Below are positions 16,480-32,220 of a stretch of DNA of 32,329 bases, piece by piece. Each line of letters starts with the position of its first letter. The stretch's first letter is position 1. The notes beneath the pieces are model-generated. The model saw nothing but the letters and a program-made list of their open reading frames with translations, was not told where the DNA came from and ran no database searches. Made by a program: the position numbers and the translations under genes. The stretch is from positions 1-32,329 of the forward strand of contig JAHDFW010000022.1 of NCBI GenBank assembly GCA_020627945.1, written 5' to 3'. The stretch comes from Cytophagales bacterium. Lineage in GTDB: Bacteria > Bacteroidota > Bacteroidia > Cytophagales > JAHDFW01.

Positions 16480-18111
16480 ATGAAATCACTAAACATTATT
16501 AAACTGGCAGTTCTAGGTGGCTGTATCAGTTTGTATTCCTGTAATGGGAATAATGGCAATGATGGGGGCAAAGATGATCCTGTCAAAGAAACGGGCTACG
16601 GAAATCCAGAGTATACATACAGCATGTCTGTTGAACTTATGACGGATACTACTGGGCCAGAATTACAATCTTTCGTTCATGCAACCAATGGTTCGGATTG
16701 GTTATTATTTTCAGGAAGAACCAATTACAAAAAAACGGATAACGGTGGATTGCATAAAATGACGCATTCTGACTATGCTAGAACTTCGTTTCCACCAAAT
16801 TCGTTTAATACTAATCTGTATGTTTATAATATAGATGATACCACAACACACAGTTGCACAAGTGAAAAACTTCTAAGCGATATGAAGCAAATTTGGACTT
16901 CAGTAGCAGGTAGTGATGAGGGTAAAAAAGCATATTTAGAAATGTTAATGCCTAAATTGCAACGTGTTTTTAGATGTAGTAACCCGGAAGTAACGCAAGA
17001 TGATACCTATACCTATGTAATAGGTGGATATGGGCCAAATTCGGCGTCTGACACAAGTCAATATTCTACATTCAACCATGTAGCAAGATTTAAAACCGAT
17101 TTGTTAATTAATTATGTGAAAGGCACGGAAGTACCTGACTTTAGTAGTCTAGATTCAAAATGGTATGATTTATTAAGTTTTGGAGAAGGCACTAACTTGA
17201 GAGCTACAGGAGGTGAAGTTTTCAAGATAGGAGACACTCTATATTTATGCGGAGGACATAATTTTGGTGGGGGAGCAGCAAATGGTCAAAAATACCAAGA
17301 TGCAGTTTACCCTTTTGCAGTTGCAGGTTCGTCAAGTGATCCTTGGGCGTTAGATGTTCAAGAAGGAAGCGTGATCACTGATATTAGTCCTGTATCTGAT
17401 GTTACTAATCCTGCATCAGATAATACATCAAAAATGAGAAGAAGAGATGGGCCTATTGTGCCAATCGTTTATAACGAATCCAATTCCTTAAAGAAAGGTC
17501 TTACATTTTACGGAGGTGTATTCATGCCAGGTCCAGATAGTGATTTAAGAGCTTGGGATTTTGCCATATATATAACACCAGAAGGTACAACGCGTTATGC
17601 AATGGATAGTGCAAATCGTCAATCGCAAAACGTATATTCTTGTCCTGACTTTGGGTTATACGATTCTTCTCACGACAAGGTTTATACATTCATGCCTGGT
17701 GGTATAGGTGATGGTACTTCAGATACTATGCTTTCTCCATTTGCAAATGGTGTTACACTAGCGACCTTGGATGTTGGAACAATGACATCCACATATGAGA
17801 ATGCGACGTGCTTTCCTTTCTTAAATGGAGACACAACATTTTTTGGTGCAGAGGCAGGATTTATGCTTAAGTCCGGAATGGACGCAAATATGTTTACGCT
17901 AAGCGATGGATCCTCAAGTGAACTTCTTGATGTATCTAAAATCTTTCCGGCAGGTAAAACTAGTGTTGATATAGGTTACGTGTATGGAGGAATAGAATCT
18001 AAAAAGAAAAGTCCAGGAGCCTATTCTACTGGTTATGGAAAGAACATTTCCAAAGCAACAGGTAAGATCTGGCGAGTTACGGTGAGTAGAGCTCCGTTAG
18101 AACTTGAGTAG
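16480..18111 (+). CDS. Kelch-like lipoprotein, unknown function
   Basis: A 543-residue lipoprotein: signal peptide MKSLNIIKLAVLGGCISLYSC with Cys at residue 21 and a Gly/Asn/Asp-rich linker after it. Several GG-type motifs (YVIGGYGPNS, LYLCGGHNFGGG, LTFYGGVF, YVYGGIES) recur along the protein, each after a strand, as in Kelch-type beta-propellers, and the Thr/Ser/Tyr content is high. No enzymatic motif is seen. It lies 113 bases after the BNR protein and ends at a terminator. Possible roles are binding of a glycan or of another surface protein, but that is inference. Confidence 0.7.
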   Translation: MKSLNIIKLAVLGGCISLYSCNGNNGNDGGKDDPVKETGYGNPEYTYSMSVELMTDTTGPELQSFVHATNGSDWLLFSGRTNYKKTDNGGLHKMTHSDYARTSFPPNSFNTNLYVYNIDDTTTHSCTSEKLLSDMKQIWTSVAGSDEGKKAYLEMLMPKLQRVFRCSNPEVTQDDTYTYVIGGYGPNSASDTSQYSTFNHVARFKTDLLINYVKGTEVPDFSSLDSKWYDLLSFGEGTNLRATGGEVFKIGDTLYLCGGHNFGGGAANGQKYQDAVYPFAVAGSSSDPWALDVQEGSVITDISPVSDVTNPASDNTSKMRRRDGPIVPIVYNESNSLKKGLTFYGGVFMPGPDSDLRAWDFAIYITPEGTTRYAMDSANRQSQNVYSCPDFGLYDSSHDKVYTFMPGGIGDGTSDTMLSPFANGVTLATLDVGTMTSTYENATCFPFLNGDTTFFGAEAGFMLKSGMDANMFTLSDGSSSELLDVSKIFPAGKTSVDIGYVYGGIESKKKSPGAYSTGYGKNISKATGKIWRVTVSRAPLELE

Positions 18112-18195
18112 GACAAATTGATAATTAAGGAAATTAGGAAAGTTACCTTAATGGAAGATTTGAGACTTTGAATAATTGTGTTTTAAACTAGCAAG

Positions 18196-18229
18196 ACTCC
18201 TTGTAACGAAAGTTGCAAGGAGTTTTTTT
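18196..18229 (+). terminator. Terminator after the Kelch-like lipoprotein
   Basis: ACTCCTTG (18196-18203) pairs with CAAGGAGT (18216-18223); the stem extends inward with one G-U pair to 12 bp closed by a GAAA tetraloop (18208-18211). A T run to 18229 follows. Confidence 0.85.
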
Positions 18230-18282
18230 ATACTCAAAAGTAGTTGAAAAAAATGATTGATATCAGTTTTGATAAATTAAAA

Positions 18283-18300
18283 GGATATTAATGTCCGAAT
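18283..18300. promoter_or_regulatory. Putative operator in front of the Rrf2 gene (GGA-N8-TCC dyad)
   Basis: The dyad GGA (18283-18285), eight bases, TCC (18294-18296) followed by GAAT shares 16 of 18 bases with the site at 18808-18825. It lies upstream of the -7 box at 18315, across the place expected for the -33 box, so binding there would block transcription. Autoregulation by Rrf2 is inferred. Confidence 0.5.
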
Positions 18301-18314
18301 TTAAATTGAAGTGA

Positions 18315-18322
18315 TATATTTG
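18315..18322 (+). promoter_or_regulatory. Putative -7 box of the Rrf2 gene
   Basis: TATATTTG fits the Bacteroidetes -7 consensus TAnnTTTG. No clear TTG is present at -33; ATG at 18291-18293 is 21 bases upstream and would be a weak substitute. The start would be near 18327, 26 bases before the ATG. Confidence 0.45.
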
Positions 18323-18352
18323 TATTGAAGTAATCTAAGAAAAGAAGAATAG

Positions 18353-18787
18353 ATGTTTTCAAAATCTTGTGAATATGCGTTTCGAGCCTTGATATATATA
18401 GGTTTGTGTTCTCAGAAAGGTGAGAAGACAAGTTTGAAATATATTGCAGAAAATATTGATTCTCCTCAGTCATTCACAGCGAAAATATTACAAAAGTTGT
18501 CTAAGGCTAATATTTTGGTTTCTGAAAAAGGGGCGAACGGGGGATTTATAATTACACAAGAGAAGCTTCAGACGACACGGTTATATGATGTGGTAATTGT
18601 GGTTGATGGGGATAAAATCTTTACGGGTTGCGCATTAGGGTTGGTAAAATGCAATAGTGAAAAACCTTGCCCGTTGCATTACTCATTCCTAGAAGTACGT
18701 GAGAAACTAAGAAAGACTATGTTGCATACTAATTTGGAAGATATGGTAAATGGTGCTTCTGATGGAAGCTCTGTTTTAAGACTTTAA
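18353..18787 (+). CDS. Rrf2-family iron-sulfur transcriptional regulator (IscR/NsrR-like)
   Basis: A 144-residue winged helix protein of the Rrf2 family. The N terminus (FSKSCEYAFRALIYIGL) and the wing KGANGGF (about 59-65) are typical. Three Cys, C93, C100 and C106 (spacing 6 and 5), lie where IscR and NsrR bind their Fe-S cluster, so it may sense iron-sulfur status, redox or nitric oxide. The CALGLVKCNSEKPCPLH text fits this group in Bacteroidota. A dyad operator lies in its own promoter and a near-copy in the promoter region of the next gene, which suggests autoregulation plus a target. The signal is not decidable from sequence. Confidence 0.9.
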   Translation: MFSKSCEYAFRALIYIGLCSQKGEKTSLKYIAENIDSPQSFTAKILQKLSKANILVSEKGANGGFIITQEKLQTTRLYDVVIVVDGDKIFTGCALGLVKCNSEKPCPLHYSFLEVREKLRKTMLHTNLEDMVNGASDGSSVLRL

Positions 18788-18803
18788 TATTTTTTTAACT
18801 ATA

Positions 18804-18825
18804 ATTCGGATAAAAATGTCCGAAT
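18804..18825. promoter_or_regulatory. Putative Rrf2 operator in front of the small membrane protein
   Basis: Perfect inverted repeat ATTCGGA (18804-18810), spacer TAAAAATG, TCCGAAT (18819-18825). It lies 23 bases before the ATG at 18848 and matches the site at 18283 in half-site, spacing and most of the spacer. No TAnnTTTG box is seen between it and the gene. Confidence 0.55.
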
Positions 18826-18847: not shown

Positions 18848-19213
18848 ATGGAAACTTTACAACACAAGAGAGTAGTGGTGCTAAACCAAGAATTAGAAAG
18901 TCAGAATTTAAACTTTATTCAGCAGTTTTTGAACTGGTGCGAAACTAGGCAGGATTATAGTATGTCTTTTTTGGTAGGGATGTTTCTCATTCATGGCAAC
19001 CTTACCGTTCCTGCAACATTACTTACGATGCACTTCTCTGCAGCAGGAGAATATCAGGTAATAGTGAGTCTGATTGCAACTTTTAGTATTTTAATAAGCA
19101 ATCTAACTTTATTTCCAACAAGGATTACTATTCCAATATTTTTATTGGCTAGCGTAACTATGTGGGGACTAGTAATAAGCAATGTATTACATCTGTTAAA
19201 TTTTATAGGTTAG
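18848..19213 (+). CDS. Small membrane protein, unknown, likely Rrf2 target
   Basis: A 121-residue protein. A polar N-terminal part of about 35 residues (ending NWCETRQDY) is followed by three hydrophobic segments, roughly 38-60, 68-90 and 94-118. The family was not recognised. It follows the Rrf2 gene by 60 bases and has its own dyad operator at 18804-18825, so transcription is probably controlled by the Rrf2 protein. A role in respiration or stress at the inner membrane would fit, but there is no direct evidence. Confidence 0.65.
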   Translation: METLQHKRVVVLNQELESQNLNFIQQFLNWCETRQDYSMSFLVGMFLIHGNLTVPATLLTMHFSAAGEYQVIVSLIATFSILISNLTLFPTRITIPIFLLASVTMWGLVISNVLHLLNFIG

Positions 19214-29699: not shown

Positions 29700-31379
29700 A
29701 TGAATTATGCTCACATAATTGACCTTGTAAATGTCTTTGTAGGGCATGGTGGTGAACATGTAATTATTTCACCAGGGTCAAGAAGTGCTCCTTTAACAAT
29801 TGCCTTCACATCTCATTCGGAAATTAAATATCGAATGATTCCAGATGAACGTAGTGCTGCATACATAGCCTTAGGTATTGCTAAGAAAACTAAGAAACCA
29901 GTTGGACTAATTTGCACGTCTGGAACTGCCGCAATGAATTTTGCTCCCGCGGTTGCTGAAGCCTATTTTCAAAAAGTCCCGTTGATCGTACTTACTGCCG
30001 ATAGACCTGCCGAATGGATTGGACAGCAAAACGGACAAGCGATTTATCAAAATGAACTCTATGGAAAAAACTGTAAGGCTTCATTCGTATTTCCAACAAA
30101 CCCTGAGCATACAAACGAACTATGGCATGGCAATCGAATTATAAACGAAGCTATGCTTAAGGCGGTAAGTTATCCTATTGGACCCGTACATATTAATGTT
30201 CCTTTTAGAGAGCCTTTTTATCCAGAAGCAAATACCGAGTTGAATTTCGACGTTCCAACCAAGGTGGTTAAAGAGCTTAAAATTCGAGGTACATTAACCC
30301 TGCGAGAATGGAATACACTTGGTAAAACTATTACCAAAAGCCCTAAAATACTGTTGATTGCGGGAATGTTAGAACCTGATTGGCAATTTATTCAACAAGT
30401 AGCCAACCTACCATTTCCTATTCTTGCTGATGTTACTTCTAACTTGCAAACCTGTTCGAACGCTATTACAAAGCATGACAGCATATTGTTAAAAGAGCAT
30501 TCAGAATTAGTTCCCGACCTTGTGATAAGCTTTGGAGATATGATCTTATCTAAACCTCTTAAGAAGTTTATTAGGGCAAATCCACCAAAAGAACATTGGC
30601 ATGTACAGGAAGGAGACGGAATAGTGGATGCTTTGCAATCTGTAACAAAGTTTATTAGAACTAAAGCTCAAGATTTCTTACGTGATCTAAACGAATATGA
30701 TTTTTCCATTCATGAAAAAACGTATCTTGATTCCTGGAAAGCAGCGCAAAATAAAGTAAACGAGAAGTTAGATACACTTTTTGCAGATAAAACACAGTTC
30801 AACGAATTTGTTGCCGTCCAACGAATCATGAGAAATATCCATGAAAAGTGTACTTTACATTTAGCAAACTCCATGACGGTTCGATATGTTTCAACACTTT
30901 CTACCACAAAAGACCTGTGTATTCTATCTAATCGAGGAACAAGTGGCATTGATGGATGTACCAGTACAGCAATAGGATATGCTCTTTATGATCATAAAAT
31001 CAATGTGTTGATTACCGGTGATATGGCCTTTTTGTATGATAGGAATGCATTCTGGAACAACTATGTGCCCGAAAATCTAAGAATTATCGTTTTGAATAAT
31101 TCGGGTGGAGGAATCTTCAAACTAATTGAAGGTCCAAATAATGTTAAAAACGCAGATGAAATTTTCGTAACACCTCAAATTAGTACAGGAGAACATTTGG
31201 CAAAAGAGTTTGAGATTGATTACGAAATGGTGGATAATTTGGAGGATTTAAACGTTGCACTTAAGAAATTCTTTGGTGTGAGTAGAAATCCCGAGCCTAA
31301 AATTCTAGAAATAAAAACTGATATTAATAAAAATACTGAGTTCTATTCACAGTACAAAAAAATAATGAAAGATGAGTAA
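29700..31379 (+). CDS. menD: MenD, SEPHCHC synthase (menaquinone pathway)
   Basis: A 559-residue thiamine-diphosphate enzyme of normal length. It joins isochorismate and 2-oxoglutarate in the menaquinone pathway. Visible parts: N-terminal pyrimidine domain with ISPGSRSAPLTIAF (about 23-36), the DERSAAYIALGIAK segment, the TSGTAAMNF loop, the PLIVLTADRP motif, and a C-terminal pyrophosphate domain with SNRGTSGIDG and LITGDMAFLYDRNAFW, where the GD near the Mg-binding site and the NN-ending segment sit. Its stop codon overlaps the menB start by 8 bases, so the two are coupled. Confidence 0.96.
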   Translation: MNYAHIIDLVNVFVGHGGEHVIISPGSRSAPLTIAFTSHSEIKYRMIPDERSAAYIALGIAKKTKKPVGLICTSGTAAMNFAPAVAEAYFQKVPLIVLTADRPAEWIGQQNGQAIYQNELYGKNCKASFVFPTNPEHTNELWHGNRIINEAMLKAVSYPIGPVHINVPFREPFYPEANTELNFDVPTKVVKELKIRGTLTLREWNTLGKTITKSPKILLIAGMLEPDWQFIQQVANLPFPILADVTSNLQTCSNAITKHDSILLKEHSELVPDLVISFGDMILSKPLKKFIRANPPKEHWHVQEGDGIVDALQSVTKFIRTKAQDFLRDLNEYDFSIHEKTYLDSWKAAQNKVNEKLDTLFADKTQFNEFVAVQRIMRNIHEKCTLHLANSMTVRYVSTLSTTKDLCILSNRGTSGIDGCTSTAIGYALYDHKINVLITGDMAFLYDRNAFWNNYVPENLRIIVLNNSGGGIFKLIEGPNNVKNADEIFVTPQISTGEHLAKEFEIDYEMVDNLEDLNVALKKFFGVSRNPEPKILEIKTDINKNTEFYSQYKKIMKDE

Positions 31380-32220
31380 TAACATTAACTGGGTAACCGC
31401 TAAGGAATACGAAGACATAACGTATAAAAAGGCAAATGGAGTAGCTAGAATCGCTTTTAATCGACCAGACGTTAGAAATGCGTTTAGACCTAAAACGACT
31501 TCTGAATTATACGACGCTTTCTACGATGCACATGAAGATCGTGACATAGGAGTGATTCTTTTGTCCGCAGAAGGGCCTTCTTCTAGAGATGGTGTTTATG
31601 CATTTTGTAGTGGTGGTGATCAGAAGGCTAGAGGAGAACATGGTTATGTTGACCAAAAAGGTGTGGCAAGACTAAATATCCTAGAAGTTCAAAGGTTGAT
31701 CCGATTTACGCCAAAAGCAGTAATCGCGGTAGTTCCAGGATGGGCTGTAGGAGGTGGACATAGTTTGCACGTAGTGTGTGACCTTACTTTAGCAAGTAAA
31801 GAGCACGCAATTTTTAAGCAAACTGACGCAGATGTTACAAGTTTTGACGGAGGATATGGTTCTGCATACCTAGCAAAAATGGTTGGTCAAAAGAAAGCAC
31901 GTGAAATATTCTTTCTAGGGCGCAATTACTCTGCACAAGAAGCTTATGAAATGGGAATGGTAAATGCTGTTATTCCTCATGCAGAGCTGGAAGATACTGC
32001 TTACGAATGGGCTCAAGAAATTCTTGCTAAATCTCCGATTTCCATAAGGATGTTGAAGTTTGCAATGAACTTGACAGATGATGGTATGGTTGGACAACAA
32101 GTGTTTGCAGGAGAAGCTACAAGATTAGCTTACATGACTGAAGAGGCCAAAGAGGGGAGAAATGCCTTTTTAGAAAAAAGAAAACCAGACTTCAAAAAGT
32201 TTGGTCAAGTTTCAAGTTAA
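31372..32220 (+). CDS. menB: MenB, 1,4-dihydroxy-2-naphthoyl-CoA synthase
   Basis: A 282-residue crotonase-fold enzyme of normal MenB length; it closes the naphthoate ring from o-succinylbenzoyl-CoA. Diagnostic motifs: SGGDQKARGE in the N-terminal third (the MenB loop), GWAVGGGHSLHVVCDLT, then TDADVTSFDGGYGSAYLAKMVGQKKAREI (about 156-184), and a C-terminal EGRNAFLEKRKPDF that is typical of MenB. It starts 8 bases inside menD. A terminator follows at 32251. Confidence 0.97.
   Translation: MSNNINWVTAKEYEDITYKKANGVARIAFNRPDVRNAFRPKTTSELYDAFYDAHEDRDIGVILLSAEGPSSRDGVYAFCSGGDQKARGEHGYVDQKGVARLNILEVQRLIRFTPKAVIAVVPGWAVGGGHSLHVVCDLTLASKEHAIFKQTDADVTSFDGGYGSAYLAKMVGQKKAREIFFLGRNYSAQEAYEMGMVNAVIPHAELEDTAYEWAQEILAKSPISIRMLKFAMNLTDDGMVGQQVFAGEATRLAYMTEEAKEGRNAFLEKRKPDFKKFGQVSS

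Follow-up and report, generated by a model that had tools for sequence, protein, structure and literature searches.

The two near-identical dyads at positions 18279-18300 and 18804-18825 of the window (the whole stretch of 32,329 nucleotides from a Cytophagales bacterium that was analysed here) are best explained as the operators of the Rrf2 family protein encoded between them (rrf2, 18353-18787, on the forward strand like the operators, the terminator, the promoter box and the target gene described below). At a probability of roughly 0.78, we favour an NsrR-like iron-sulfur repressor that would act through its own twin operators on its own gene and on one target, and that would be released by nitric oxide (NO). 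This reading is built on the sites themselves, their two fixed positions, their conservation together with one Rrf2 subfamily, the ligand pattern of the protein, the linkage to NO genes and a promoter scan of the organism's own genome. A dimeric Fe-S regulator working in the manner of NsrR would bind GGAYA-N4-TRTCC over its own -33 region and also at the promoter of the gene that follows, and would repress both. Damage to its presumed cluster, most likely by NO, would make it leave the DNA, and the regulator would then be made together with the small membrane protein encoded next to it.

When we compared the 18-mers at 18283-18300 (GGATATTAATGTCCGAAT) and 18808-18825 (GGATAAAAATGTCCGAAT), they were identical at 16 of 18 positions and differed only at the adjacent positions 6 and 7, as the original prediction had stated. 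No further match with up to three mismatches was found in the rest of the window, where shuffled sequences give a chance expectation of 0.21. The second copy had been described as a perfect 7-bp inverted repeat, and so it is: the full dyad at 18804-18825 reads ATTCGGA-TAAAAATG-TCCGAAT, with perfect 7-bp arms around an 8-bp centre. In the first dyad (AAAAGGATATTAATGTCCGAAT), symmetry is confined to the core (GGAtA/TgTCC; 18283-18296, GGATATTAATGTCC) and the left flank is AAAA instead of ATTC. A weight matrix scored the upstream operator at 22.6 and the downstream one at 26.0, and the third-best site in the window reached 5.8. The motif first proposed, GGA-N8-TCC flanked by ATTC and GAAT, survives in part: the dyad is conserved in relatives, but the conserved core is GGAYA-N4-TRTCC and the outer flanks vary, TAAA/TTTA being as common as ATTC/GAAT.

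Searching 98 genomes from the same order, we obtained 25 closer Rrf2 relatives (36-51% identity) and many more distant ones. The core adjoins rrf2 in 10 of the 19 loci first examined for the closer relatives (L016-L034, window included), and no operator site was found at 11 more distant relatives (L035-L045). A scan of GTDB with a pattern that included Cys6 of the protein gave 80 Bacteroidota rrf2 loci, from Aquimarina, Zobellia, Maribacter, Arenibacter, Cellulophaga, Algoriphagus, Echinicola, Kaistella, Myroides, Sediminibacterium, Saprospiraceae and others. Forty of the 80 have the exact core no more than 150 bp ahead of rrf2, against none for the reversed control, and these cores lie at -48 to -63 in 39 cases and at -86 in one. 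With the 22-bp weight matrix, trained on the same 80-locus collection and used at a threshold of at least 10 bits, sites were found upstream of rrf2 in 62 of the 80 loci (at -44 to -63, once at -86) and downstream in 36 (at +450 to +457 from the start, a few at +478, which is about 20 bp past the stop codon). Both sites are present in 30 loci, where shuffled regions lead one to expect about 0.1.

Because this first matrix had been trained on the loci that it scored, we ran a held-out test in which the matrix was retrained on the upstream exact sites only and the downstream regions were never used. Scores of at least 10 were obtained for 24 of the 40 held-out upstream regions and for 44 of the 80 regions downstream, compared with 13 of 12,033 background windows of 70 bp, and the window's own sites, excluded from training, scored 21.5 and 23.7. 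No site could be recognised in some relatives, L116 among them. The held-out scores and the position-specific conservation indicate that the twin architecture is a conserved trait and not a quirk of one genome. Conservation of the dyad upstream of rrf2 orthologues, one of the points on which the original prediction was to be judged, was therefore found, along with a second copy after the gene, and the paired sites are very probably the binding sites of the Rrf2 regulator itself.

The rrf2 gene encodes 144 amino acids, and its product belongs to the Rrf2 family by its matches to PF02082 (84.2 bits, cut-off 30) and TIGR00738 (79.4 bits, cut-off 73.3); it is NsrR-like by context. Codons at 18629-18679 specify a probable Fe-S loop, C93-x6-C100-x5-C106-x2-H109, whose four named residues are invariant both in alignment A1 and in 81 of 81 sequences (the 80 loci and the window), so that the three conserved C-terminal-loop cysteines of Fe-S-binding Rrf2 regulators are present. 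Cys6 is nearly invariant in A1, while its invariance in the 80-locus set follows from selection, since the scan pattern contained it. It may be an extra or a replacement ligand, and the putative set C-x6-C-x5-C-x2-H plus Cys6 is unlike that of NsrR (with Asp8) or IscR.

The NsrR proteins of E. coli, B. subtilis, Neisseria and Streptomyces resemble the window protein in fold family, in their three C-terminal cysteines, in autoregulation and in a regulon that centres on NO defence genes, the latter being seen here in relatives. The regulon of S. coelicolor NsrR is likewise tiny and contains the regulator's own gene (PMC4432287). However, the ligands of Streptomyces NsrR (ScNsrR) are Cys93, Cys99, Cys105 and Asp8 (PMC11500311), a C-x5-C-x5-C arrangement, whereas the window protein has the spacing given above and Tyr occupies position 8 throughout the 81 sequences. 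It scores 33.4 bits with the NsrR equivalog NF008240, against a cut-off of 182. The NsrR operator, gATGyAT-N5-ATrCATc (PMC1274295), also differs from GGAYA-N4-TRTCC, and the remark in the original prediction that the motif was unlike the E. coli NsrR site proved correct. Judged from its sequence, the protein is not a canonical NsrR, for its cysteine spacing, residue 8, HMM score and operator all differ.

What surrounds rrf2 in the 80 loci points to the signal. RIC is encoded beside it in 45 (a representative passes TIGR03652), a group III-like truncated globin (trHb) in 21, a quinol NO reductase (qNOR) in 20 and a hemerythrin-domain protein in 17, the neighbour families having been checked by HMM; in 13, a nearby gene encodes what we take to be NosZ, from recognising its sequence. 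At least one of these five lies nearby in 64 of the 80 loci. Other recurrent neighbours are CcoN/CcoO-like oxidase genes and a cupin. The operator also stands ahead of the NO-inducible flavohaemoglobin Hmp in L048, of a RIC fusion (an ORF with a RIC-like domain) in L065 and of a DUF2249-cupin-COX1 operon in L062. A metagenome study of 2018 noted that Rrf2 genes adjoin clade II nosZ and did not give a binding site (PMC6264515). Since genes for NO metabolism and denitrification surround rrf2 in relatives, NO would be the most likely signal for the regulator.

The same neighbourhoods bear on the possibility that the protein is an Fe-S-homeostasis regulator of the IscR or RisR type, whose sites would answer to cluster supply and not to NO. 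A histidine three residues after the last cysteine occupies the position of the IscR His ligand, and H109 stands exactly there, so that the window protein shares with IscR both the family and the Cys-Cys-Cys-His pattern. RisR of Myxococcus xanthus is likewise an Rrf2 repressor with a similar site that overlaps promoter boxes, T(t/g)GAC-N7-GTCC(t/a), which comes near to GGAC-N6-GTCC (PMC9973013), and the full NO-defence set was not found in the organism's own genome. However, RisR controls isc and suf and uses C92, C102 and C108 as ligands (PMC9973013), whereas the window subfamily sits in a NO-defence neighbourhood: its recurrent neighbours in the 80 loci are RIC, NOR, trHb, hemerythrin and NosZ, and in a non-exhaustive search of these loci no recurrent neighbour cluster was recognised as isc or suf. 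The IscR equivalog TIGR02010 gives 40.1 bits against a cut-off of 207.6, and ligand spacing and target genes differ from those of IscR as well. We consider regulation by cluster supply unlikely, and retain the NsrR-like repressor that NO would release. With (T/G)GAC-N7-GTCC, the RisR operator has one base more between its arms than GGAC-N6-GTCC, and the two subfamilies may share recognition residues.

Both operators are placed as one would expect of a repressor. A strong intrinsic terminator with a 15-bp stem (18193-18226; terminator scan, RNA fold -21.5 kcal/mol, z -5.8) follows the lipoprotein-like gene at 16480-18111 and insulates the rrf2 promoter from it. Downstream of the first operator (18279-18300) we read a probable -7 box of the Bacteroidota type, TATATTTG (TAnnTTTG), at 18315-18322, an assignment made by direct reading and from the box spacing in relatives. 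Over the upstream operators of the 62 relatives, 48 such boxes start 29-31 bp past GGA, compared with +32 in the window. This distance places the operator over the -33 element, with the TTTG of GGATAAATTTGTCC at the -33 position, in keeping with the location originally proposed for this site. In most upstream sites the operator overlaps promoter elements at a fixed distance, as is expected of an autoregulated repressor. The downstream operator (18804-18825), between rrf2 and the next gene, overlaps with its start a TATAAT-like box at 18800-18805 that belongs to a promoter-like TTAAGA-18-TATAAT, and ends 22 bp ahead of the ATG at 18848, that is, shortly before the small membrane protein gene, as had been predicted. 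The placement of both operators would suit repression by occlusion.

The downstream dyad also folds as RNA, at -10.6 kcal/mol (z -4.3), and it could be imagined as a terminator, an attenuator or a stabiliser of the rrf2 transcript whose likeness to the upstream site is secondary. Yet no T-run follows the dyad and the terminator scan did not call it, the same core sits upstream of the rrf2 -7 box where transcription is not expected, and conservation falls on particular bases (GGA, A, T, TCC), with near-matches at both places in relatives. A role as RNA is, on these grounds, very improbable. Conservation beside a gene does not alone name the protein that binds, and the sites could in principle belong to another regulator that controls rrf2 and its neighbour. 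To this we would give equally little credit, because in many Bacteroidota genera the motif accompanies this Rrf2 subfamily regardless of which genes adjoin it, and is absent before other Rrf2 relatives. The reading to which these observations return us is that of operators recognised by the protein encoded between them.

In the organism's own genome (3.87 Mb in 227 contigs, 88.6% complete), the exact core GGAYA-N4-TRTCC occurs 8 times, which equals the 8 matches of the reversed-pattern control, so the core alone is not over-represented. A mere chance repeat could be argued from this count, but it is refuted by the matrix and held-out tests and by position-specific conservation in dozens of genomes, and its probability is close to nil. 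All six cores other than the pair fall within coding ORFs, five of them inside long ones and the sixth inside a putative lipoprotein ORF of 54 aa (L071), and a longer pattern with one mismatch allowed gave 5 additional matches, every one inside an ORF. The two sites that flank rrf2 are the only promoter-located cores in this 88.6%-complete assembly, which agrees with a two-promoter regulon. Many random copies in coding regions would have spoken against the original prediction; those present are few, and its claim that the pair is unlikely by chance stands by virtue of position and conservation, even though the core count equals the control. Its suggestion of autoregulation plus one target is well supported by the scarcity of promoter copies and by the conserved twin sites, together with the held-out test. 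TTCGGA-N8-TCCGAA with two mismatches was set aside as a scan pattern, since it gave 149 matches against 122 for the control and was uninformative, the flanks not being the conserved part.

The presumed target gene (18848-19213) encodes a small membrane protein of 121 aa with three helices, for which neither Pfam nor NCBIfam gave a match. The homologues are likewise small and membrane-bound, about 85-145 aa long. In L197 and L198 a homologue comes directly 3′ of rrf2 with its operator; in L198 a truncated globin, a 4-TM protein and RIC come next. A small membrane protein family with the motif QSCLGS occurs in 22 of the 80 rrf2 loci. Iterating an HMM from this family, we recovered the window protein in round three (E 1.5e-10), and the matches listed from 2414 ORFs included no unrelated one, although the training of that round partly used proteins that the window protein had itself retrieved. 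With hhalign, the window protein alone gave no signal against cluster 5, and a profile-profile comparison with that cluster reached a probability of just 67 (E 5e-5). It is the intermediates (L197, L198, L143, L158) and the iterated HMM that make the link to the family convincing, and on this sequence evidence we place the target in a family of small membrane proteins with three helices that recurs in rrf2 loci. Aligning the window protein to cluster 5 with MAFFT (A4) gave a poor result, which was set aside as evidence.

The AlphaFold model of a cluster-5 relative (pLDDT 81) has an amphipathic helix and three long helices, and since no credible PDB match for it was found, the fold gives no function. 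The protein may plausibly work near respiratory oxidases or NO reductases, and may serve in nitrosative stress. Homologues are found just 3′ of FixG(-C), FixH and DsbD-like cbb3-assembly genes (L189, L191, L195, L196), suggesting a possible connection with haem-copper oxidases. In L081, L084, L085, L087 and L090, homologues stand beside universal-stress-protein genes without the operator, in another family of the order.

The regulon looks stripped down in the organism's own genome. Searches at E of at most 0.001 found no RIC (TIGR03652), no COX1 (PF00115, the family of haem-copper oxidases and NO reductases) and no hemerythrin (PF01814) in the 88.6%-complete assembly, and for flavohaemoglobin (Hmp) only sub-cut-off matches of the reductase type, while control genomes gave matches for each NO family searched. 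About 11% of the genome is missing, and the absence of NO-detoxifying genes is thus suggestive rather than proven; with no full NO-defence set at home, the link to NO rests on the relatives. The window also carries genes that read as MenD (29700-31379) and MenB (31372-32220), and hence for menaquinone, in a genome with no detectable haem-copper oxidase. It is possible, if doubtful, that the Rrf2 subfamily with its own operator and ligands governs a phylum-wide NO regulon in Bacteroidota, in which the three-helix protein would be a dedicated nitrosative-stress effector, kept here as the sole target after the loss of the known NO-detoxifying enzymes.

Among characterised systems, Thermus thermophilus NsrR, with NsrS/NsrT, is alike in being an Rrf2 regulator in a NO and denitrification cluster, in having sites ahead of both nsrR and its neighbour, and in the small ScdA-N-like and cupin proteins encoded alongside; unlike the present system, it recognises CTTGACCNNGGTCATGG and acts as an activator at some promoters (PMC5748679). 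HcpR of Bacteroides is likewise a nitrosative-stress regulator of the Bacteroidota with a small regulon (PMC1274295, PMC13370916), but it belongs to the CRP/FNR family, and protein and site are unrelated to those described here. We found no earlier account of the GGAYA-N4-TRTCC operator in the open-access literature, although the subscription literature or RegPrecise may have one. What we describe is most likely an autoregulated, NsrR-like regulon of two promoters, run by an Rrf2 subfamily of the Bacteroidota through an operator of its own.

Bacteroidota are abundant denitrifiers and N2O reducers, and their NO response, in the literature searched, has been treated mainly through HcpR. With a conserved operator that accompanies a single Rrf2 subfamily across much of the phylum, NO-responsive genes, among them those for membrane proteins as yet uncharacterised, could be sought by a sequence rule, and direct tests of cluster type and of NO sensing come within reach. 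How far the NsrR mechanism depends on Asp8 could likewise be probed with the different ligand set. Tryptophan 2,3-dioxygenase-like genes, unexpected in a putative NO regulon, occur beside rrf2 in 8 of the 80 loci, for example in L174 (about 920-1882 after the rrf2 start) and in L210 (1781-2707, PF03301).
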